From NCBI GenBank assembly GCA_016192455.1, contig JACPUC010000019.1:62001-126000 (forward strand): a stretch of DNA of 64,000 nucleotides. Direction: 5' to 3'. The notes beneath the pieces were generated by a model. It saw nothing but the letters and a program-made list of their open reading frames with translations. It searched no databases and was not told where the DNA came from. This document shows, piece after piece, positions 42,299 through 54,901 of this stretch (the first letter of the stretch is position 1; each line of letters opens with the position of its first letter). The translations under genes and the position numbers were made by a program. The DNA comes from Candidatus Tectimicrobiota bacterium. Lineage in GTDB: Bacteria; JACPUC01.

Positions 42299-43678
42299 TC
42301 ATCCTTTCATCTCAGTTTTCACTTTTTCCCAAAGTATTACTGCCTTGGCCCGAGTGTCGACCGAGAGTTCCAACCGTTGAGCGTACGGCCCCAGCGGACG
42401 CGTCGAGTCGATCCCTACCTTTGTAGTAACGCCCTGCTCCGTCGTCGAAGGATCCAAAATGACTCCCATGGAGCGCGGCATCACCATGATGCTGCGGTCC
42501 CCTTGCATGCGAGTAGACAACGACCACAGCACATCTTTTTCGTTAAAGACATCCACGTCGTCATCGACCACAATCACCAGCTTGCAGCCATGATCAATTC
42601 CAAAAGCGGCATAGATTGCCTGTTGAGGCTGGCCTTCCGCGGTCTTCTTGATTGAGATGTAGCAGTGGAAAATTCCACAGCCAGAAATCGGCACATGGAC
42701 CGCTTTGACATTAGGAACCGTGCGGCGCACTGCCTCGATGACATCGACTTCACGCGTAAATCCCATGACAGTGTTATGATCGCCCGCAAAACCGGAACAA
42801 ATACTCTGATACAGAGGTTCGTCCCTGTAGGAGACGGCCTCGACAAGGAAGACATTCTGGGTACTCCGCGACGAGGCATAGCCTGTAAATTCGCTGAACG
42901 GTCCTTCCGGTTCGCGCACGCTGGAAAGAATCCTTCCTTCGAGGACAATTTCGGTCCAGGCTGGAACCAGAAGATCAATCGTAGCGCAGCGCGCCACTTC
43001 CATCGGCTCTCCAAAAAGCCCGCCGATCAGCTCGAACTTGCTCTCGTCGTATGGCAAGAGCGCCATGGAGGCCAGGGAGTGGATGGGATGCAACCCTATA
43101 CATATTGCTGCCGGCAGGTCCTGCTTCAGCTCTTCCGCGCGAAGCTGATACTCCCAGACGCGGCGCCGGCTGTGCAAGCTGATCCCAAGCCTGTTTTTTC
43201 CCTTGAGCATGCAACGGTGATACCCCAACGTATCGGTGCCGCTCTTAGGGTCACGAGTGACCACCATGGCGGCGGTAATGTAAGGAGCCGGATCGACTGG
43301 GAAATGCGTGAGGATCGGCAGCTTCGTCAGGTCAACTTGGCTGCCGATCTGCACGTTGGCATGAAAAGGAGCCTTGTCTATCTCGGTGGGGGCGAATCGG
43401 TTCACACTGCGCTGCATAAATGTTTGCGTTGCCTGAGCAAGGGGAACACCCAAGGCGTCGGCAAAACGTTTTCGATGGGAGATGACGCCGGTGACCACGG
43501 GAATATCGAAACCCTTGATATGATCAAAGAGAAACAAAGGATAATGGCCATGCCGTTCGGCCTCGAGCATCAGGCCGCTCACCTCGTACTTGGGATCAAT
43601 CTCATCGTGGATGTGGAGCACTTCATCTGGTCGCTCGCTTTCCATCTTTGCAATAAAATCTCGCAACGCCTGACCCAT
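42299..43678 (-). CDS. UbiD-family decarboxylase, homologue 2
   Basis: 459 residues from ATG 43678 (ATG 43687 possible; AGGAGG lies just upstream of both). Catalytic Glu pair in REPEGPFSEFTGY near residue 255, YITAAMVVTRDPKSGTDTLGYHR near 130 and VIVVDDDVDVFNEKD near 385. The open frame extends 110 codons further upstream, but that part translates leader element B and is not protein-like. Neighbours are the orphan binding protein and TPP decarboxylase genes. Substrate unknown; prenyl-FMN dependence is assumed from the family. Confidence 0.88.
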   Translation of the reverse strand: MGQALRDFIAKMESERPDEVLHIHDEIDPKYEVSGLMLEAERHGHYPLFLFDHIKGFDIPVVTGVISHRKRFADALGVPLAQATQTFMQRSVNRFAPTEIDKAPFHANVQIGSQVDLTKLPILTHFPVDPAPYITAAMVVTRDPKSGTDTLGYHRCMLKGKNRLGISLHSRRRVWEYQLRAEELKQDLPAAICIGLHPIHSLASMALLPYDESKFELIGGLFGEPMEVARCATIDLLVPAWTEIVLEGRILSSVREPEGPFSEFTGYASSRSTQNVFLVEAVSYRDEPLYQSICSGFAGDHNTVMGFTREVDVIEAVRRTVPNVKAVHVPISGCGIFHCYISIKKTAEGQPQQAIYAAFGIDHGCKLVIVVDDDVDVFNEKDVLWSLSTRMQGDRSIMVMPRSMGVILDPSTTEQGVTTKVGIDSTRPLGPYAQRLELSVDTRAKAVILWEKVKTEMKG

Positions 43679-43828
43679 ACTCCTCATCCTCCTGTATGAA
43701 CCGAGCACTACCCAGCAGGCTGGCGGCGGCGGGCCAAGCCCATCGTCCGGACCGCCATCGCGGCTTCGATCCTCGAAAAGATCGCGCCACTTTGTAAAAC
43801 CCAATTTGCTTTCTTCCTTTGGGAAAGA

Positions 43829-43931
43829 ACCACCCTTCGGAGGAAGATGTTGCAAGTGCGCGAGGTGCAACTCCGCGTGGTGGTGACCACGCTCAACCAA
43901 AGAGGTGGACCTTGAGCATGGCACGAATCGC
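43829..43931 (-). promoter_or_regulatory. Conserved leader element, copy B
   Basis: Minus strand starts GATTCGTGCCATGCT (identical to copy A over 15 bases), contains CCACGCGGAGTTGCA (identical) and the pairing half TGCAAC, then GGGTGGT. It lies 150-250 bases upstream of UbiD homologue 2. The similarity to copy A runs over about 100 bases interrupted by variable loops. Confidence 0.5.
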
Positions 43932-44148
43932 GCCCCGCCACAAGTCTGAATCCCAGTGCCTCGACTACCAGGATAAGGAGAAAAAGGAATGTCCTGACCA
44001 ATGACCACATTTAGGAAGAGGGGCTGGAAACCCTGGAGAACTCCGCCATGAGCCGCGCCGTGCGGTGAATCCCAGCCTCGCGGGGGAGCTGGTTCTACCC
44101 ACGGGCAGATGGTCCGCTCGAGCGGTTGGGCGAGGCGCTGACAAACCT

Positions 44149-44680: not shown

Positions 44681-45100
44681 CTACCGCGGCGCTTCCCCGC
44701 AAGAGGTGGCCGACGCTTGCCATTCACCGCGGGTTTGTAGACAGAGCAGCAGGATGACAAGTCCCATCAACGTATCACCAATGCCGGCGAGGAGAACGAT
44801 GCGGGAGGCCCGGAAGACGAGCACCTCGCCGTAGAGGAAAAGAACGGCGCACAGTTTGGAGACAACGGTGAACCATGCAAAGGCGCGGAAACGGCGGAGA
44901 TCGACGGCGGGCAAAAGGTAGGCAATGCCGAGGATGAAGAGGAAGACGCCGCTCTGCCGCGGGTAGAAGAGCGATGGTCCCTGCTGAAAGCCGAAGGCCT
45001 GCAGGACGGGGGCGGTGAAGAAGTAGAGCAGCAACCCCAGGACTAAGCTGTGCAGAGAGACCAGTCCCATCACCAGTCTGAAGGCTCGCGCGTAGTTCAT
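44681..45100 (-). CDS. Small four-helix membrane protein
   Basis: 139 residues with four hydrophobic helices (about 6-34, 46-66, 73-92, 98-120). Family not recognised. It starts 8 bases after the stop of the 978-residue fusion protein and is surely cotranscribed, so it may be an accessory membrane subunit. Confidence 0.65.
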   Translation of the reverse strand: MNYARAFRLVMGLVSLHSLVLGLLLYFFTAPVLQAFGFQQGPSLFYPRQSGVFLFILGIAYLLPAVDLRRFRAFAWFTVVSKLCAVLFLYGEVLVFRASRIVLLAGIGDTLMGLVILLLCLQTRGEWQASATSCGEAPR

Positions 45101-45108
45101 CGCCAGGC

Positions 45109-48045
45109 TCAGAAGGAGTAGAGGACGATGTAGAGCACCGCCAGCAGCAACATGCTGCTTCTCAACAGGGGACGTAGACGCCTGACCTCATGGGATTGGA
45201 GAAGACGGAGCATGCGCTGCAGCACGAAGAGCGACACCGCCATTCCCCCCAGCACCACGAGCACCTGCAGTCCCTTGACGGCGAAGGGCGGGACATGCAG
45301 GTAGCTCTCTGAGAACTTAATCCCAAAGGGAGCCAGGGCCATCGGCACAATCTTCCACGAATCCAGCAGGAAGGGCATGAGATGGTAGGCGAACTCCGCG
45401 GCCAGAATGAGGGGCACGGCAACGTGGGTGAGGCGGCTGAAGTGCAGCCGCGGGCTCTCCTCGGAGCGCCGCGCAAGCAGCCACGCCACCCCGCCGAATG
45501 AGGCAAGCACCGCGGCCAGAGCAGCCACCATGACGACGAAGGTGGACAGATAGGCGGAATCAGCCAGCAGGGGCCAGGCGTACTCCAACGGTCCCTTGAC
45601 GAGCAGGCGACTGACCTGGGTTGCGAGGAGAACGGGGATCAGGAAGTCGATGCTGACGATCGGCTGACGATTGGCCCACAGCTCCGCGCCGGGGAACCGC
45701 AGGTTCAGGCGCGGCGACTGGTGGGGGCAGAGCTTCAAGCAGTTGCCGCAGAGGATGCAGTACTCATTGGATTGCAACGAGAAGGCCCCCTGGTACATGG
45801 GGCAGCCCGCCACCTCCTCATTGCCGGTATAGCAGGCATGGGAGAGGCACTCGTTCTTGCAGATGTTGGTGTTGGCACGCAGCTCCAGGGGGGCTGCGGT
45901 GGCGAAGCCGGCGCTGGCGCCCCCCAGCGGACAGGCGTACCGACACCAGGCGCGGCGGTCAAAGAGAAAGCCGAAGACGACGGCGCCGCTGAGGATCGAG
46001 AGCAGGAGAACAGCCGTCGCCAGCGGCCAGGTGCTCATGTGGGTGGACTGCTCGGCCCACATGATCGTGAAGAACCCAGCCGCGCTCAGCGGCAGGGCAT
46101 AGCGGCGCAGGAAGGAGGGAACCTTCCAGCGCCGGCCGCCGAGGCGCGAGACGACGTCCCCGACCGCCGCCATGGGGCAGAGGCTGCACCAGAGCCGCGC
46201 GACGACGAACCAACTGGCCACCAACGCCGGCCACCAGATGGCCCAGACGAGGGGCAGGGCGACGTTGCGCTCCGCTTGCTGGGGGCCCAGCAGGGCGACC
46301 AGAATGATCACGAACAGCCCCACCACCGAGAAGAGTTGCGGCAGACCGGGGTAGAACCGGCTTTGCATCAGCTTGCGCAGCGGCTCCCAGCGAATGAGGT
46401 TAACGCGCTCCCGTTTCTCCAGCGCCGAGATGCCGACGAAGATGTGCTCGGCCCCCAAGTGCTCTCCCTGGGCCAGGTGCACGCCTCGGCGGATGGTCTC
46501 CTCCAGTTCCGCCAGGTTCTCCGGCCAGTCATAGGCGAAGAGCACGTTCATCGCCTCCTGGGTAAGGCCGGCGAGGCGGTTCCGACTCAGCGCGCTGTGC
46601 TTCTTGAGATAGTGGGCGATGAAAAGGCTAAGGTCCTTCTTGCGCTCGGAAAGTGCGGGAACCCGCACGTGCCGGGTGGCGAGGAGTTGGTGGAACTCCT
46701 CGAGAAAGGTTCCATCCTCGACGCGCTGGCGCAGGTCGACATCCGTGCCCGCCACGATGCGGACCTGCGCGCGGCGCACCAGCTTGTCGCCCAAGCGCGC
46801 AAAGCGCCCCGTCTTCATGAAGTCGAGGAGCTGCTGCTGCACCGTCAGGTGGAGCCGCTCGACGTGCTCGATATAGAGGGTGCCGCCGTCCGCGACCTCC
46901 AGGCATCCGAGGCGCCGTTGCTTGGCAAACGAATGCCCGCCGCGCTCGTGCCCGAACAGGGCGCTGCACTGCGACATCTCGACCACCAAGCCGTCGTGCT
47001 CCGCCTCGTCCTCGGGCTGGGGCTTGGCGCGTTTCGCGCCGTGATTCTGACCCTCACCCAAGGCCGGCAGCGAGGCGGCGTCGAAGACCAGGAAGTGATT
47101 GTCGCTGCGGGGACTCGATTCATGGAGGTGACGCGCGACGATCGCCTTCTCGGTGCCCAGAGGACCGCTGATGAGCACTGGCTGATCAGTCGGCGCCACG
47201 TTCTCGATCTGCCGCCGCAGCGCCTTCATGGGGGAAGAGGCGCCCAGCAGAGGGCCGGCGGCGGCCTGCGTCTGTTCCAGCAAGAAGTCGCTCAACGCGG
47301 CGCCGTGGTCGAGTTCCTGCTCCAGACGCACGTCCGTTTGCCGCAAGCGCTGGGCCAGAATCGGCACGAAGGTGCCGGCCAGCGAGGGCATCTCCCGCAG
47401 CAGGACATCGAAGCTCGCCGCGGAGATGCTGAGGAGCGTCGACTCCTTCAGGGCGCGCACCGAAGCGGAGCGCGGTTCGCCGGTCAGCAGCGCCATCTCC
47501 CCCAGGGTCTCTCCCGGCCCAAGCCTGGCGATTTCCGGCTCCCTCCCCCTCTCGATGGTGCGGAAGATGGAAACCTGGCCTGAGATGATCAGGTAGAAGG
47601 CATCCCCCGCTTCGTCCTGCAGGAACACCAGTTCGGAAGGGCCGAAACGCTTCTCCTCCGCAACCTCTGCCACTTTCGTCAGTTGTTCGTCGGAAAGCGT
47701 CTGAAAGATCGCGGTGGAACGCAGACGGTCCTTGCGCTGCTCGAACAAGGCGCCCTGAATCGCTTCCTCATCGCAAAATCCCATCTGCAGGAGAATTTGG
47801 CCCACCAGCTTCGGCACCCCGGTGGTGAGGAGCTGCGCGGCGTGGCTTAAAGCGGTCTCGATCTGCGTCGGGCTGCACGCGCCTAAGTGGACCAAGTAGT
47901 CCCCCAGGCGTCGCTGGGCTGGCTGTTCATCGGGTTTGTCTGGCAGGTTTGACTGAGTGGGGGGAGGGGAAGGAGAGGTATTGGGCGCAGCCACCGGCGG
48001 GGAGCCGGATTCAGCAACGAACGACGCGCTTGAAGCCTGGTCCAT
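45109..48045 (-). CDS. Fusion: cNMP-binding + degenerate sigma-54 AAA+ + NapH/NosR-like Fe-S membrane protein
   Basis: 978 residues. Order: Pro-rich start (1-45); GspE-N-like helical domain (47-105); cyclic-nucleotide-binding domain (113-240) with canonical phosphate cassette LGEMALLTGEPRSASVRA (Glu183, Arg192); sigma-54-interaction-type AAA+ domain (268-535) that is degraded: Walker A reads GPLGTEKA, GAFTGA is replaced by GGHSFA and Walker B is TLYIEH; then a membrane region from 570 with NapH-type WCSLCP (619-624) and WCRYACP (700-706), a Cys cluster (729, 733, 738, 748) and a ferredoxin motif C-x2-C-x2-C-x3-CP (763-773), and further helices. No DNA-binding HTH follows. The likely role is a membrane electron-transfer protein gated by cyclic nucleotide; inferred. 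Divergent from a nucleotide cyclase gene. Confidence 0.85.
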   Translation of the reverse strand: MDQASSASFVAESGSPPVAAPNTSPSPPPTQSNLPDKPDEQPAQRRLGDYLVHLGACSPTQIETALSHAAQLLTTGVPKLVGQILLQMGFCDEEAIQGALFEQRKDRLRSTAIFQTLSDEQLTKVAEVAEEKRFGPSELVFLQDEAGDAFYLIISGQVSIFRTIERGREPEIARLGPGETLGEMALLTGEPRSASVRALKESTLLSISAASFDVLLREMPSLAGTFVPILAQRLRQTDVRLEQELDHGAALSDFLLEQTQAAAGPLLGASSPMKALRRQIENVAPTDQPVLISGPLGTEKAIVARHLHESSPRSDNHFLVFDAASLPALGEGQNHGAKRAKPQPEDEAEHDGLVVEMSQCSALFGHERGGHSFAKQRRLGCLEVADGGTLYIEHVERLHLTVQQQLLDFMKTGRFARLGDKLVRRAQVRIVAGTDVDLRQRVEDGTFLEEFHQLLATRHVRVPALSERKKDLSLFIAHYLKKHSALSRNRLAGLTQEAMNVLFAYDWPENLAELEETIRRGVHLAQGEHLGAEHIFVGISALEKRERVNLIRWEPLRKLMQSRFYPGLPQLFSVVGLFVIILVALLGPQQAERNVALPLVWAIWWPALVASWFVVARLWCSLCPMAAVGDVVSRLGGRRWKVPSFLRRYALPLSAAGFFTIMWAEQSTHMSTWPLATAVLLLSILSGAVVFGFLFDRRAWCRYACPLGGASAGFATAAPLELRANTNICKNECLSHACYTGNEEVAGCPMYQGAFSLQSNEYCILCGNCLKLCPHQSPRLNLRFPGAELWANRQPIVSIDFLIPVLLATQVSRLLVKGPLEYAWPLLADSAYLSTFVVMVAALAAVLASFGGVAWLLARRSEESPRLHFSRLTHVAVPLILAAEFAYHLMPFLLDSWKIVPMALAPFGIKFSESYLHVPPFAVKGLQVLVVLGGMAVSLFVLQRMLRLLQSHEVRRLRPLLRSSMLLLAVLYIVLYSF

Positions 48046-49058
48046 AGCGATTTCCTGACTCCTGTTGCAGCAACGATACCCGCCGGAGACAGGCCAGGAA
48101 AAGCTTCGAAGCTGGTACGTCTCCGTGCTCAGGGAGTATCTTCCGCGGAAAATGCTGCAAGGATCATAACTGCCCGCGGTCAGCAGCCGACAGGACTACC
48201 CGCTTTGCGCTCTCTACTTGTGTTCGATAAGGTTCTCTCGCTCTCCCCCGTTGCCCGTTGTGTGTGCTGGTATGCCGGGGGCAACGCAGTGCTGCAAGCG
48301 GCCCTTGGCGCGGCGCCGTTGAGGCGCTGACACGGCACCGCGCTTGTTCATGCCGTGGCCGCCCGCAATCTAACAGATTAACTTGCCACCTATGGCAAGC
48401 TCACGCTTTGATACATGTCAAGAGTTGCCGGCAATTCGAGGGGAGCGGCGTGGCGTTCCTGGTGCTGCCACCAAGGTGCAGCGTGACACGGAAAGCACCG
48501 CGCGCCATCCACCCGCAAGGGGACGCTGCTGCGGCCCCGGGGCATGAGATGTGAAGCTTGCGGACTGTGAGCGGCGATCAAGGGCGCTATGCAGCTATCG
48601 CGGCATCTCATCGCTTCTGTCTTCGCGGCATGAATTCTGTGGGGGACCTCGTTCCCGCGGCCCCCGTTCCGCGAGCGAACGGCGGCGAAAAGGGCGCGGC
48701 AGCTCGAATTTTCCCAGAAGCAACGTCCCCTCGCGCCAGGAGGTTTTCGCTCACGAGTCTTTCTCTGGCGTGGCGTCCTGGTGCGTCAGATGCTTCCCTG
48801 GGACGGACCACCACCCCCCCCCGCCGGAGCCGCAAAGCGGCTTGACCCCTCGCCGCGCCCTTGTTAGAATGCGGGATAATTCCTGGACGTCGAGGCAGGC
48901 TGGCGCAATCAATCGGGACATGGCTCGCCAAGCTTCGTGCCGGGCACGTTCCTGCTCAGCAGGATCGTCTTTCCCGTGGTCGGGGTCTTGGCATCAACAA
49001 GTCGCCCCCGGCCGTTGGGCGGAGCGGTGCGGGTGAGCGCACGTCGGGAGTGAGGGTT
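48046..49058. other. Divergent promoter region
   Basis: About 1 kb between the fusion-protein gene and the cyclase gene, which are transcribed apart. No supported gene. It must contain both promoters; no CRP-type TGTGA-N6-TCACA site was recognised. Confidence 0.35.
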
Positions 49059-50936
49059 GTGAGTGTCCCTGGAGAGCTTCGGAAACTCCAGAGCTTCTAT
49101 CGCCGCGGCGCATGGCCCCAGGTCATTCAGGTTGGCGAGCAGTTGCGGCACCAGGGCCGGGATGACCATGTCCTCAACGCCTGGCTCGCCATGGCCTACC
49201 ATGTCACGAAGCAAGACCAGAAGGCCATCCCGCTCTGCGAGAAGCTGTACCAAACGGCCACTTTCAGCGATGTGCAGACGGAGTGCCGCGAAATCGGCAT
49301 CTCCGCGATGCGCTACCACGTCGTGCTGGCTCGCCACTTCTTCCAAGAGAAGCGGTACGATGAGGCTTTGCGCATCTGCGAACGGCTGAAAGTCTTCGAC
49401 AACAAGCTTTCCGACAAGTTCATCATCGCCGGCAAGGTCTATCTCGAGCAAGGACATTACTCGCGCGCTGCTGAAGAGTTCGCGCGCCTGCTCACCGAGC
49501 GCCCCGACCGCGCCGATAACGCCGTCGCATGCCTACGCTACCTCCTCGATGCCGAGCCGAGCAACGAAGCCGCCCACCGCGCCCTCTTCGACCTCTCCGA
49601 ACGCACCGGAACGACCCGGAAGCAGATCAGCGACAACGAGGCGCGGCTTGCCCGCTCGCCCGATGAGGCGCGGGCGATCTTTGCGTTGGGTTACCTCTAC
49701 ACCTTCAGCGGCTCCGCGCCGCAGGCCCTCGCTCTGTGGCAGCGCTACCTCGCGAAGTACCCGACGTGGAAACATCTCCACCTGGCGCGCGGCCACGCAC
49801 ACTTCCACCAGGACGACTACGCGCAGGCCGAGAATTGCTGGCAGCAGTTTGAGCCGGCAACAATCGCCGAGGCCGAAGCGCTCCTGCAGTGCTACAACCG
49901 CCTCTTCAGCCGCTCCTGGAGCTCCGAGCCGGTGCTCTGGCGGCTGGTCGAGCTCGGGGTGAAGTGGGACCGTCTCGATGTGGTCGAGGGTCCCCTGAAG
50001 ATCATGCGGAAGATCAAACCCGACTCGCCGATGATCGGCCAGATTCTTGAGCAGGTCCTCGTCCTCCAGGTGGACCGGCACACAAAAGCGGGAAGCTCCA
50101 CCGCGGCCCTGGCACGGCTGAAGGAGCTCGTTCGGCTGCATCCCGACAAGCCGGCCTACCAGCAACGGCTGGCAGAATTTCTTGCGGCTCACCCCGGGCT
50201 GCAGGCCCAGAAGGACGAGGTACGGGAGGCGCCTGCCCCCTCCGAACCAGCACACGGCGCCACCCTCGTGGGAGATCTCACCACCCCGGCTGGGGGATTG
50301 CATTCCGCGACCGAAGCCATCGTCGTCGTCGACCTCTGCGATTCCACCACCCTGGCCTCCAAGTTCGGTGACCGTTATCTCCTGGAGGTGAAGAAGCTTC
50401 TGGCGGATACCGCCGAGCCGCTTTTCAAGCAGCACCAAGTCCGCTGGCTGAAGAGCACGGGAGACGGTTACCTGAGCATTTTCCCCAACAGCCGGGAGGC
50501 AGCGTTGGCAGCCGTGACACTCCTGCGCACCTTTCAGGAGGAGAAGCAGCTCGCTGAGTCCCATCCCATTCACATCCGCATCGGCATCCACTTCGGCGAG
50601 ACGCAGGTCGATGGCAACGGCGAGCGCCATGGGCAGGTGGTTCACAAGGCCTTTCGGATCGAAGGGGTAAAGCCTTCGGACCTTACCCAAGTGGAGGGGA
50701 GCGCCCCGCGCGCAGAGGTGCCGCTGCGCAACCGCATCTTCCTCTCCGAAGAGGTGTACGACGACATCTATCAGGACGACATCCCGCGCTGCCGGTTTAT
50801 CGGTGTCACCGAGCTGAAGGGGTTCTCCGGCCTGCACCGCCTTTACGAGCTGAAGTGGCAGGAACAGCCGCGTAAACTTCAGCCGGCGGCGGGCGAAAGC
50901 GACCTTGAGCACCGCGGCACCGGTCCAAGGGTCTAG
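49059..50936 (+). CDS. TPR-repeat class III adenylate/guanylate cyclase
   Basis: 625 residues from GTG 49059 (GGGAG upstream; GTG 49050 also possible). Residues about 1-380 are helical TPR-like repeats. Residues 419-540 are a cyclase homology domain: VVVDLCDSTT with both metal Asp (425, 428), KSTGDGYL with base-recognising Lys465 and loop Asp469, RIGIHFGETQ, and GQVVHKAFRIEG where the transition-state Arg533 is kept but the usual Asn is His529. So it is probably active, making cAMP or cGMP. The divergent neighbour carries a matching cNMP-binding domain. Confidence 0.85.
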   Translation: MSVPGELRKLQSFYRRGAWPQVIQVGEQLRHQGRDDHVLNAWLAMAYHVTKQDQKAIPLCEKLYQTATFSDVQTECREIGISAMRYHVVLARHFFQEKRYDEALRICERLKVFDNKLSDKFIIAGKVYLEQGHYSRAAEEFARLLTERPDRADNAVACLRYLLDAEPSNEAAHRALFDLSERTGTTRKQISDNEARLARSPDEARAIFALGYLYTFSGSAPQALALWQRYLAKYPTWKHLHLARGHAHFHQDDYAQAENCWQQFEPATIAEAEALLQCYNRLFSRSWSSEPVLWRLVELGVKWDRLDVVEGPLKIMRKIKPDSPMIGQILEQVLVLQVDRHTKAGSSTAALARLKELVRLHPDKPAYQQRLAEFLAAHPGLQAQKDEVREAPAPSEPAHGATLVGDLTTPAGGLHSATEAIVVVDLCDSTTLASKFGDRYLLEVKKLLADTAEPLFKQHQVRWLKSTGDGYLSIFPNSREAALAAVTLLRTFQEEKQLAESHPIHIRIGIHFGETQVDGNGERHGQVVHKAFRIEGVKPSDLTQVEGSAPRAEVPLRNRIFLSEEVYDDIYQDDIPRCRFIGVTELKGFSGLHRLYELKWQEQPRKLQPAAGESDLEHRGTGPRV

Positions 50937-53057: not shown

Positions 53058-54671
53058 CTACTCCTTCGCCTCCTTCCAACCGCGGAACGGCTTGCGGCGC
53101 TGGGCCAGTTTCTCGCCGGTTTCGAGGTAGAGGCCCTGGACGGCCATCTGCGCCTCCTTGTCCCACTCCTCCGGCCAGTAGCCAAGGGCGTAGCCGTGGT
53201 AGGGGTAGCGCGTCTTCAACGGCGGCAAGCCGAGCTCCTCCCAGATTTCCTTCGCATGGTCCATGTACTCCTTCGCCGGCAGCGACACGGTTGGATAGGC
53301 GTGCTTGCGCGTCGCGTCGATGAGCATGGCCGAGGTGCCGACCGGCTTCGGGAAGCGGCGGTCCTCCGTCTCCGTCCCCGAGGGCGCCGCGGAGGGATCG
53401 AGCATGGAGGATTTCCCCGTCGTGATGCGCACGTCGAGGTGCGGCTGCATGCAGAATGAGAGCGCCCAGTTCACCGACTCCGGGTCGTCGGGGTCGATAT
53501 CGGGGTCCACGGTGATGATGATCTTGCCGATCGTCGGGTCGAGGGCGACGGCGGCGTTGAGCGCCTGCCAGGGCTGGCTCGGATTCGTCTTGTCGAGCTG
53601 GATGACGATGTACATCCAACTCCCGCTCATCTCGTGGAAGGCCACCCGCTGCACCGTGGGGATGTTGCAGTCGTACTTCAGGAATTTCAGCATCAGGGCG
53701 TCGTAGCTGATCTTGCGGATCATGCTGCTCTCGCTGGGCGGGAACTGGCTGATGAACGCTTGGTAGATCGGCTTGCGGCGGTGCGTGATGCAGGAGATGT
53801 TGAAGACGTGGTTCTTGGCGCGCTCCCCCATGTAGCCGCTGTACTCTCCAAAGGGAGCCTCATCCTCGAGGTACTCGGTGGAGAGCTCGCCCTCGACGAC
53901 GATCTCCGAGGTTGCCGGCACTTCGAGGTCCACCGTCTCGCACTTCACCAGCTCGATGGGCGCTCCGGCCAGACCTCCCGCGACATCGTACTCATTGACG
54001 CCGTAGGGGATCTTGGCGACGCTGCACATGCCGACATAGGGAACGCAGCCAAGGATGATGGCTGCCGGCAGGTTCTGGCCGAGCCGCCGCGCCTTCTCGA
54101 GGTGGATGCCGATGTGCTGCGCCCCGTGGGTCATGATGCCGGTGCGGGTCCGTCCCTTGATCATGCCGCGGTAGGTGCCGACATTGACAATGCTGGTTTC
54201 CGGATCCTTCGTCACCACGTAGGGAGAGGAGAGGTAGGGGGCGGTGTCATAGCCCGGGGTGGAGATAGGGATGGGGAACTTGTCGATGCCGCCCGCCTCG
54301 AGGAGGGCATCTCCTTGCAGGATGACCTCCTTGACCGGTCCGCCGTCCACCATCTTTGGCGGGATGGGGAAGCGCTGCGCCTGCACCCAGCGTTCCTGAA
54401 TCTCCTCCACCTTGCAGCCCATGCCGGCGGCGTAGATCGGCCGCGAGGCGCCCAGAATCCCCACCGCCACCTTGGCGTCGAAGGAGCGCCCACGCGAATC
54501 CGTGAGGCTCTCAAAGAGAAAGGCCTTGCGCTCATCGCTCGGCAGACCGCGGAACTGCCAGCGCACCAGCGGCATGAGCTCCGTGTCCTTGTTGATCGTG
54601 CGCTTGACGCGGTAGAGCAAGCCCTTCTGATCCAGGTCGTTGATGAAGTCGCGTAGATCCTTATACGCCAT
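53058..54671 (-). CDS. UbiD-family decarboxylase, homologue 3
   Basis: 537 residues from ATG 54671 (MAYKDLRDFINDL, GAGAGGAGAG upstream). Catalytic Glu pair in EDEAPFGEYSGYMG near 285, YLSSPYVVTKDPETSIVNVGTYRGM near 155, and an ITVDPDIDPDDPESVNWAL metal region near 405. It is longest in the middle and C-terminal parts, resembling the phenolic-acid/vanillate or 4-hydroxybenzoate decarboxylase type more than E. coli UbiD. Monocistronic with a strong terminator. Substrate unknown. Confidence 0.9.
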   Translation of the reverse strand: MAYKDLRDFINDLDQKGLLYRVKRTINKDTELMPLVRWQFRGLPSDERKAFLFESLTDSRGRSFDAKVAVGILGASRPIYAAGMGCKVEEIQERWVQAQRFPIPPKMVDGGPVKEVILQGDALLEAGGIDKFPIPISTPGYDTAPYLSSPYVVTKDPETSIVNVGTYRGMIKGRTRTGIMTHGAQHIGIHLEKARRLGQNLPAAIILGCVPYVGMCSVAKIPYGVNEYDVAGGLAGAPIELVKCETVDLEVPATSEIVVEGELSTEYLEDEAPFGEYSGYMGERAKNHVFNISCITHRRKPIYQAFISQFPPSESSMIRKISYDALMLKFLKYDCNIPTVQRVAFHEMSGSWMYIVIQLDKTNPSQPWQALNAAVALDPTIGKIIITVDPDIDPDDPESVNWALSFCMQPHLDVRITTGKSSMLDPSAAPSGTETEDRRFPKPVGTSAMLIDATRKHAYPTVSLPAKEYMDHAKEIWEELGLPPLKTRYPYHGYALGYWPEEWDKEAQMAVQGLYLETGEKLAQRRKPFRGWKEAKE

Positions 54672-54901
54672 CAATGGCTCTCCTCTCCGGTGCATCACGC
54701 CCAGCGCCTTGCCCGCCGGCCTGCCGCGCGCGCCGCGGCCCCGCAGAAATCCCCCCTGCCCCGCGCAGGCGGCAGGGCAAAGTTACCAACATCTTGAGTT
54801 TGACGCAAGGCCGCTGCGGAAAGCCAGCGGCGTGCGCTTGGGGGGAGTGACCCCTGGCGCCGTCTCCTCCAGGCGGCCGCCCATGCGGAGCCTCCTACCC
54901 C

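Follow-up and report, generated by a model that had tools for sequence, protein, structure and literature searches.

The 64,000-nucleotide window analysed here, from the genome of a Candidatus Tectimicrobiota bacterium (contig JACPUC010000019.1), encodes a 978-residue protein in which a cyclic-nucleotide-binding (CNB) domain, a catalytically dead AAA+ domain of the sigma-54-activator type and a NapH/NosR-like membrane iron-sulfur module are joined in one chain. We consider this anatomy, and the family assignment that goes with it, to be nearly certain. Judging from sequence comparisons, the protein is no freak but a member of an old, conserved family that spans several phyla, a status overlooked by an initial annotation of the same DNA. 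The best overall explanation, to which we assign a probability of roughly 0.45, is that a ligand sensor would be coupled via the dead AAA+ scaffold to a quinol/ferredoxin membrane module.

The open reading frame (ORF) begins with an ATG at 48045 and runs intact to 45109 on the minus strand; the initial annotation had these coordinates exactly and left the strand unstated. The ORF contains no Ns, and its codon-position G+C is coding-like, with one frame through every domain junction. Pfam assigns PF00027 (cNMP_binding) to residues 132-217 (84.7 bits versus a cut-off of 27.5), followed by PF00158 (Sigma54_activat, 117.8 bits), PF25601 (AAA_lid_14, residues 467-541, above cut-off) and PF12801 (Fer4_5, 38.4 bits versus a cut-off of 22), with a Fer4 match at residues 761-776 that falls below the cut-off. 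The same scan of the 978-residue chain detects no DNA-binding domain or helix-turn-helix; transmembrane (TM) helices come instead. Hence both the one-chain architecture and the missing DNA-binding domain, as initially described, are borne out. An AlphaFold model of the whole chain has a mean pLDDT of 72.8 and a pTM of 0.47, and the domain packing in it is therefore not trustworthy.

A survey of the same architecture across genomes, as the initial annotation had proposed, yielded 66 further distinct fusion proteins. Of the resulting 67 AAA+/membrane fusions, 41 are cyanobacterial and the other 26 come from Desulfobacterota, Bacillota, an Armatimonadetes bin, further bins and the source genome. 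These proteins are ORFs of the fetched loci (90 before contained duplicates were dropped) and do not form a random set, as hand-picked cyanobacterial regions were added (14 of 15 in one batch, plus one more); one member, L041, is half a gene without the Walker region. Among 59 genomes searched (the source genome and its kin, all of them related at domain level only), we found the window copy and one relative, 31% identical over residues 378-947. Within the phylum to which that relative belongs, matches at E ≤ 1e-60 occur in 60 of 244 genomes, from 43 of 108 genera. PsaA/PsaB are present in all 60, and these holders are therefore cyanobacteria. The cyanobacterial-phylum search gave 66 matches, with loci for the best 30. 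With the membrane half as query, 26 of 386 genomes match at E ≤ 1e-20; 11 of these, the source genome included, carry the AAA+ fusion and 15 a membrane-only form (ORFs read by eye). Among named genomes, 19 loci were recovered, from Desulfobacterales, Desulfobulbaceae, Desulfocapsa/Desulfofustis, Peptococcaceae, Clostridiaceae, an Armatimonadetes bin and unassigned or 'Proteobacteria' bins. At 18 of the 19, CNB, AAA+ and membrane parts lie in one ORF, and at the remaining locus in two adjacent ORFs. The parts follow one another in the same order in other phyla, which places the architecture far beyond chance.

These data also bear on whether the frame is a misassembly or a chance fusion of two or three genes, a doubt that the initial annotation had itself raised, along with the possibility that the parts are separate in all other genomes. 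The single observation in favor is a relative (L070/L114) split into two ORFs. Set against the 66 other proteins with the same fusion, and a single coding frame without Ns throughout, an artefact is barely credible, and we reject it. The ORFs of the split gene lie 39 bp apart (L114, 4703-6514 and 6554-8320), the first covering the CNB and the N-terminal AAA+ part and the second the AAA+ lid and the membrane half; the break may be genuine or may reflect a frameshift in the bin sequence. In a tree of 62 rows (quick method, no bootstrap, cyanobacterial set thinned), the 45 AAA+-bearing rows form one group (SH-aLRT 99), opposite the membrane-only NapH-like relatives.

The AAA+ domain is recognizably that of bacterial enhancer-binding proteins (bEBPs) such as NtrC1, ZraR, FlrC and PspF, with which it shares the fold and the sigma54-activator lid. 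It matches ZraR in phmmer (E 1e-37), and the AAA+ part of the AlphaFold model superposes on FlrC (6luf) with a Foldseek TM of 0.95 by target length. It differs from bEBPs in lacking GAFTGA, Walker B, the arginine fingers (R-fingers) and a DNA-binding domain, in being fused to a membrane module, and in belonging to a family that is present where sigma-54 is undetected. Direct reading confirms the broken Walker A, GAFTGA and Walker B motifs noted initially; the R-finger motif is lost besides (Table 1). For comparison we used seven canonical activators of the source genome, taken from its 15 AAA_lid_14 places, which include the 978-residue gene. GAFTGA is found in 0/67 family members versus 7/7 activators, the Walker B D-E pair in 0/66 members covering the site versus 7/7, and neither R-finger arginine is kept in any of the 67, while both are kept in 7/7. 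Many cyanobacterial rows have lost the GAFTGA loop by deletion instead of substitution, and the R-finger columns are gaps in 42 and 37 of the 67 rows, many of them cyanobacterial. Remnants of Walker B persist as the E in three Bacillota members and the D in five cyanobacterial members. At P-loop positions 6-7 the residues are EK in 28 members, GK in 26, GR in nine, and CK, WK and DK in one each, with one gap. The P-loop was lost by clade-specific routes: the G became E in the window copy and many cyanobacteria, and W in one bin, while some Desulfobacterota, and the three Bacillota members without exception, have R for K. The structural residues D471, L502, N510 and E513 are kept in all family members.

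Ratios of dN/dS in the 25 closest of 96 pairs (24 of them cyanobacterial, and none including the window copy) are 0.05-0.17 for the AAA+ domain, 0.09-0.27 for the CNB domain and 0.02-0.10 for the membrane part. In these family pairs, purifying selection acts on the dead AAA+ domain. A fold kept under selection, with catalysis, sigma contact and often the P-loop lost, would most simply be a hydrolysis-independent ring or a smaller oligomeric scaffold. Changes in R162, D164 or R168 of PspF sharply lower ATPase activity and yield constitutive hexamers, according to a passage of PMC3419264, which fits a dead, permanently assembled ring.

A working sigma-54 activator can be rejected, given the loss of GAFTGA, Walker and R-finger motifs and the lack of a match to sigma-54 (PF04552) in 58 of the 60 cyanobacterial holders. 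The other two comprise one partial match over the cut-off and one sub-threshold match. Sigma-54 activation is therefore not the general function. The control genome, Synechococcus elongatus, likewise matches AAA_lid_14 and has no match to PF04552. Parts of two earlier reports describe sigma-54 as absent from 29 cyanobacteria (PMC3162934) and as occurring there in rare exceptions (PMC12316311). Taken with the motif counts, the scarcity of sigma-54 gives good support to the initial proposal of a recycled transcription-activator ATPase. A sigma-54-activator AAA+ domain thus survives under selection in cyanobacteria without detectable sigma-54, joined to a redox membrane module. Automatic annotation of family members as sigma-54 regulators, the name that we presume they carry in databases, would be wrong.

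The source genome does have a PF04552 match (E 4e-64), and sigma-54 together with the 15 AAA_lid_14 loci makes conceivable a flow of signal in the reverse direction. The membrane Fe-S/quinone part would then sense, and the CNB/AAA+ part would be the output, acting, for example, via bound partners (intact sigma-54 activators, response regulators) or by cAMP sequestration. NosR was originally given its name as a transcription regulator, and its homologue CprC was at first taken for one, as a section of PMC5928378 recounts, and response-regulator-like ORFs lie near the family gene in L073, L075, L080 (6365-6820), L105 (963-1619) and L107 (4833-5516). However, with 58 of 60 cyanobacterial holders lacking a sigma-54 match, interference with sigma-54 activators cannot be general, and the R-finger and Walker motifs that mixed active rings require are gone. 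Nor did clustering of 648 neighboring ORFs (window plus L070-L123) reveal any partner gene common across phyla. We regard reverse flow as unlikely.

For the membrane half, the initial description of a NapH/NosR-like domain with ferredoxin cysteines stands, on the strength of Fer4_5, a likeness to TIGR02163 and 12 cysteines that are invariant in 67/67 members. The window copy has two Cys-P motifs (CX2CP, C620/C623; CX3CP, C701/C705) and a double 4Fe-4S motif (C729, C733, C738, C748; C763, C766, C769, C773). By hydropathy, both Cys-P motifs and the ferredoxin loop share a side of the membrane with the positively charged loop 630-669 and, by the positive-inside rule, each Cys-P pair is presumed to sit at the cytoplasmic end of a helix pair. 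The 12 cysteines could supply as many as three 4Fe-4S clusters, or two and a thiol pair. In NapH and NosR, the membrane segments have been proposed, in the discussion of them in PMC5928378, to be quinol-oxidising electron carriers, and a quinone is the presumptive partner here.

With NapH/MauN (TIGR02163; NF007013 for NapH) the protein shares a four-helix membrane core and two 4Fe-4S motifs. Of its two Cys-P motifs, the second has the CX3CP form of NapH (NapH spelling as in one part of PMC5928378) and the first is CX2CP. It differs further in adding a C-terminal membrane region and a large cytoplasmic signaling N-terminus. The top NCBIfam match of the C-terminal half is the NapH subfamily TIGR02163, with E=5e-9 and 36.0 bits versus a cut-off of 213.05. 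NosR and PceC (RdhC) share the membrane module, the Cys-P motifs and an electron-transfer role proposed for them in the relevant passage of PMC5928378, by which they too once went under the name of transcription regulators. Unlike NosR, the window protein has no FMN-binding domain in the Pfam scan, and its C-terminal half has no match to the NosR model NF046105 at E ≤ 1. With a score so far under the cut-off and a different domain content, it is neither NapH nor NosR proper. His-ligated haem in the C-terminal helices was also rejected, as no His column past residue 793 reaches 60%.

NosR acts in NosZ activation besides electron transfer (so a passage of PMC5928378), and the family might by analogy be maturation or metal-delivery factors, NosR/CcoG-like, with an AAA+ ring that holds on to a redox enzyme as its client; a ring without hydrolysis could hold a client. 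Against this, the gene has no redox-enzyme neighbor that is shared across phyla, and the AAA+ hydrolysis motifs are missing. Such a role seems very unlikely.

At the input end, the CNB domain was rightly called intact: PF00027 scores over its cut-off and the phosphate-binding cassette (PBC), GEMALLTGEPRSASV, is complete and aligns with cGMP/cAMP kinase sites. The ligand of the window copy is probably cAMP, and we offer cAMP control as an interpretation of this copy rather than of the whole family. Its source could plausibly be the divergent neighboring gene, which encodes TPR repeats and a putative class III nucleotidyl cyclase. Alignment of the cyclase domain with the Ma1120 cyclase (E 2.5e-9) shows that it keeps Asp residues and a Lys that we take to bind metal and substrate, respectively. 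The source genome has four cyclase-like loci and nine CNB matches; the chance of a cyclase/CNB adjacency is roughly 0.2%, as estimated without a gene count and for a hypothesis formed post hoc.

The proposed GspE-N-like start fared less well and is the weakest point of the initial annotation. In phmmer, the first 111 residues resemble the type IV pilus protein PilF (6f8l, E=1.9e-4) and MshE (5htl, E=0.006), while the Pfam MshEN model has no match at E ≤ 10 in the first ~105 residues. The relaxed form of the MshEN c-di-GMP receptor consists of two 24-residue motifs with a 5-residue spacer (PMC5013675); in the window copy each half departs from it at two positions, and the spacing differs too. 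Among the 67 members, the window copy alone matches a short MshEN pattern.

Since the chain has sensors at one end and, at the other, an Fe-S/quinone module that would face the cytoplasm, ligand-controlled electron transfer is the most economical reading. The N-terminal CNB domain would be the input, in the source genome probably for cAMP. The AAA+ domain, derived from sigma-54 activators and lacking sigma-54 contact and ATP hydrolysis, would form an oligomeric scaffold, probably a ring, and act as an allosteric relay. The NapH/NosR-like module would probably exchange electrons with the quinone pool via cytoplasm-facing Fe-S clusters, and cAMP binding would shift the CNB/AAA+ assembly such that electron flow in the attached redox module is opened or closed. 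We advance this full mechanism tentatively, at somewhat less than even odds. The initial idea that the recycled ATPase transmits a signal to a redox membrane protein is compatible with how the parts are arranged, with the conservation of the sequence and with the cyclase next door; the direction and activity that it supposes are putative, and the coupling of sensor to redox module is one that we infer. A more specific version, in which cAMP (possibly also c-di-GMP, via the MshEN-like start) binds a permanent, ATP-independent AAA+ ring and so gates the passage of electrons between the quinone pool and a ferredoxin partner in the cytoplasm, is rather doubtful.

There is a precedent for such coupling in the MloK1 channel, whose CNB domain, a phmmer match to that of the window protein, controls a membrane module in the same chain. 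The output of MloK1 is an ion path, whereas here it would be a redox module, with AAA+ in between. SLC9C1 is another CNB-controlled membrane protein with an ion path as output.

Several observations weigh against ligand-gated electron transfer as set out above. A strict PBC pattern, which we take to hold for CRP and PKA, is matched by the window copy alone (1/67) and a loose pattern by 8/67. This apparent decay of the cyclic-nucleotide pocket in most relatives is a point that the initial annotation overlooked, and it leads us to reject family-wide cAMP signaling. In two bins a GAF domain stands in place of the CNB domain (L073, 6584-9535, as assigned by Pfam, and its close relative L075, 6735-9674), so cAMP is not the ligand of the whole family. 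The putative cyclase scores under the PF00211 cut-off (18.4 versus 21.9 bits; 21.1 in a second scan), and the other family loci that were examined showed none alongside, with one of four query ORFs wrong in one check. The G-K of Walker A is kept in 26/66 members, some of which may bind ATP. The selection figures exclude the window AAA+ domain, which has no close relative for pairing; the window copy is a long branch (1.35) of unsure position in the tree; and assembly of AAA+ rings or hexamers is something that we infer. For the membrane half, Foldseek gave no PDB match at E ≤ 0.001 and VIA-align none above Z 7.2. Residue 753 of the window copy (45787-45789), beside the ferredoxin motif, is Gly where 65/67 members have His.

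Some of these points would also suit a purely structural role, with CNB and AAA+ as an assembly platform for always-on electron transfer without ligand control. Besides the decayed PBC, the catalytic AAA+ residues are lost everywhere in the family, and four short cyanobacterial members (L097, L099, L100 and L101; 657-723 residues) keep AAA+ and have no match to the window CNB, L101 having no CNB in Pfam either. However, the window CNB keeps its full PBC and has a cyclase as neighbor, and the GAF domain in L073 suggests a swappable sensory input. A structural role alone is, in our view, improbable. L072 carries CNB and GAF together (Pfam).

If sensor-to-redox coupling is real, cyclic nucleotides would act on membrane electron flow directly, at the post-translational level, and a tractable cyanobacterium could serve to test this. 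The more specific version with a cAMP-gated ring would amount to a class of regulation that puts respiratory or photosynthetic electron flow under the direct control of a dead transcription-activator ring, and that extends across cyanobacteria and anaerobes with interchangeable sensors (CNB, GAF). We found no description of the fusion family among the open-literature entries listed, using mostly narrow queries, with subscription journals outside the scope. The parts are known; what appears to be undescribed, as far as the open literature shows, is their constant combination, how widely it is distributed and that it occurs where sigma-54 goes undetected. Synechocystis Slr0593, tabled as a 'cAMP binding membrane protein' in an excerpt of PMC3516471, may from its name be a family member.

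Table 1. Features of the 978-residue protein and adjacent genes (window coordinates).
Feature	Residues	Position	Strand	Basis or remark
CNB / dead bEBP-type AAA+ / NapH-NosR-like membrane iron-sulfur protein	978 in all	45109..48045	-	ORF, Pfam, conserved architecture
MshEN/GspE-N-like helical segment, degenerate	45-105	47731..47913	-	phmmer, motif pattern
CNB domain	108-240	47326..47724	-	Pfam, alignment
PBC GEMALLTGEPRSASV, full consensus	182-196	47458..47502	-	alignment, pattern
sigma54-activator-type AAA+ domain and lid, catalytically degenerate	267-541	46423..47247	-	Pfam, phmmer, Foldseek, alignment
Broken Walker A GPLGTEK (canonical GESGTGK)	294-300	47146..47166	-	alignment
GGHSFA at GAFTGA position	369-374	46924..46941	-	alignment
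Broken Walker B LYIEH (canonical LFLDE)	390-394	46864..46878	-	alignment
FLEEFHQL for FREDLYYR, RxDxxxR R-finger motif lost	447-454	46684..46707	-	alignment; role PMC3419264
NapH/NosR-like module, ~4 TM helices, Cys motifs	547-793	45667..46407	-	Pfam, hydropathy, NCBIfam, alignment
Extra C-terminal membrane region, ~4-5 hydrophobic helices, ~185 residues beyond NapH-like part	794-978	45112..45666	-	hydropathy, models
Hydrophobic ORF, possible operon partner	139 in all	44681..45100	-	8 bp downstream of 978-residue ORF, same strand
TPR repeats and putative class III nucleotidyl cyclase		48861..50936 (cyclase domain 50319-50936)	+	divergent neighbor; start codon putative

The 139-residue ORF matches no Pfam family and has no relative in the L070-L104 neighborhoods. 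Elsewhere in the window are two UbiD-family decarboxylases (42299-44008 and 53058-54698), with genes for NMT1-type substrate-binding proteins and TPP enzymes nearby. At the L073 and L075 loci, the family gene has another signaling-like ORF upstream and a CheY-like ORF downstream.

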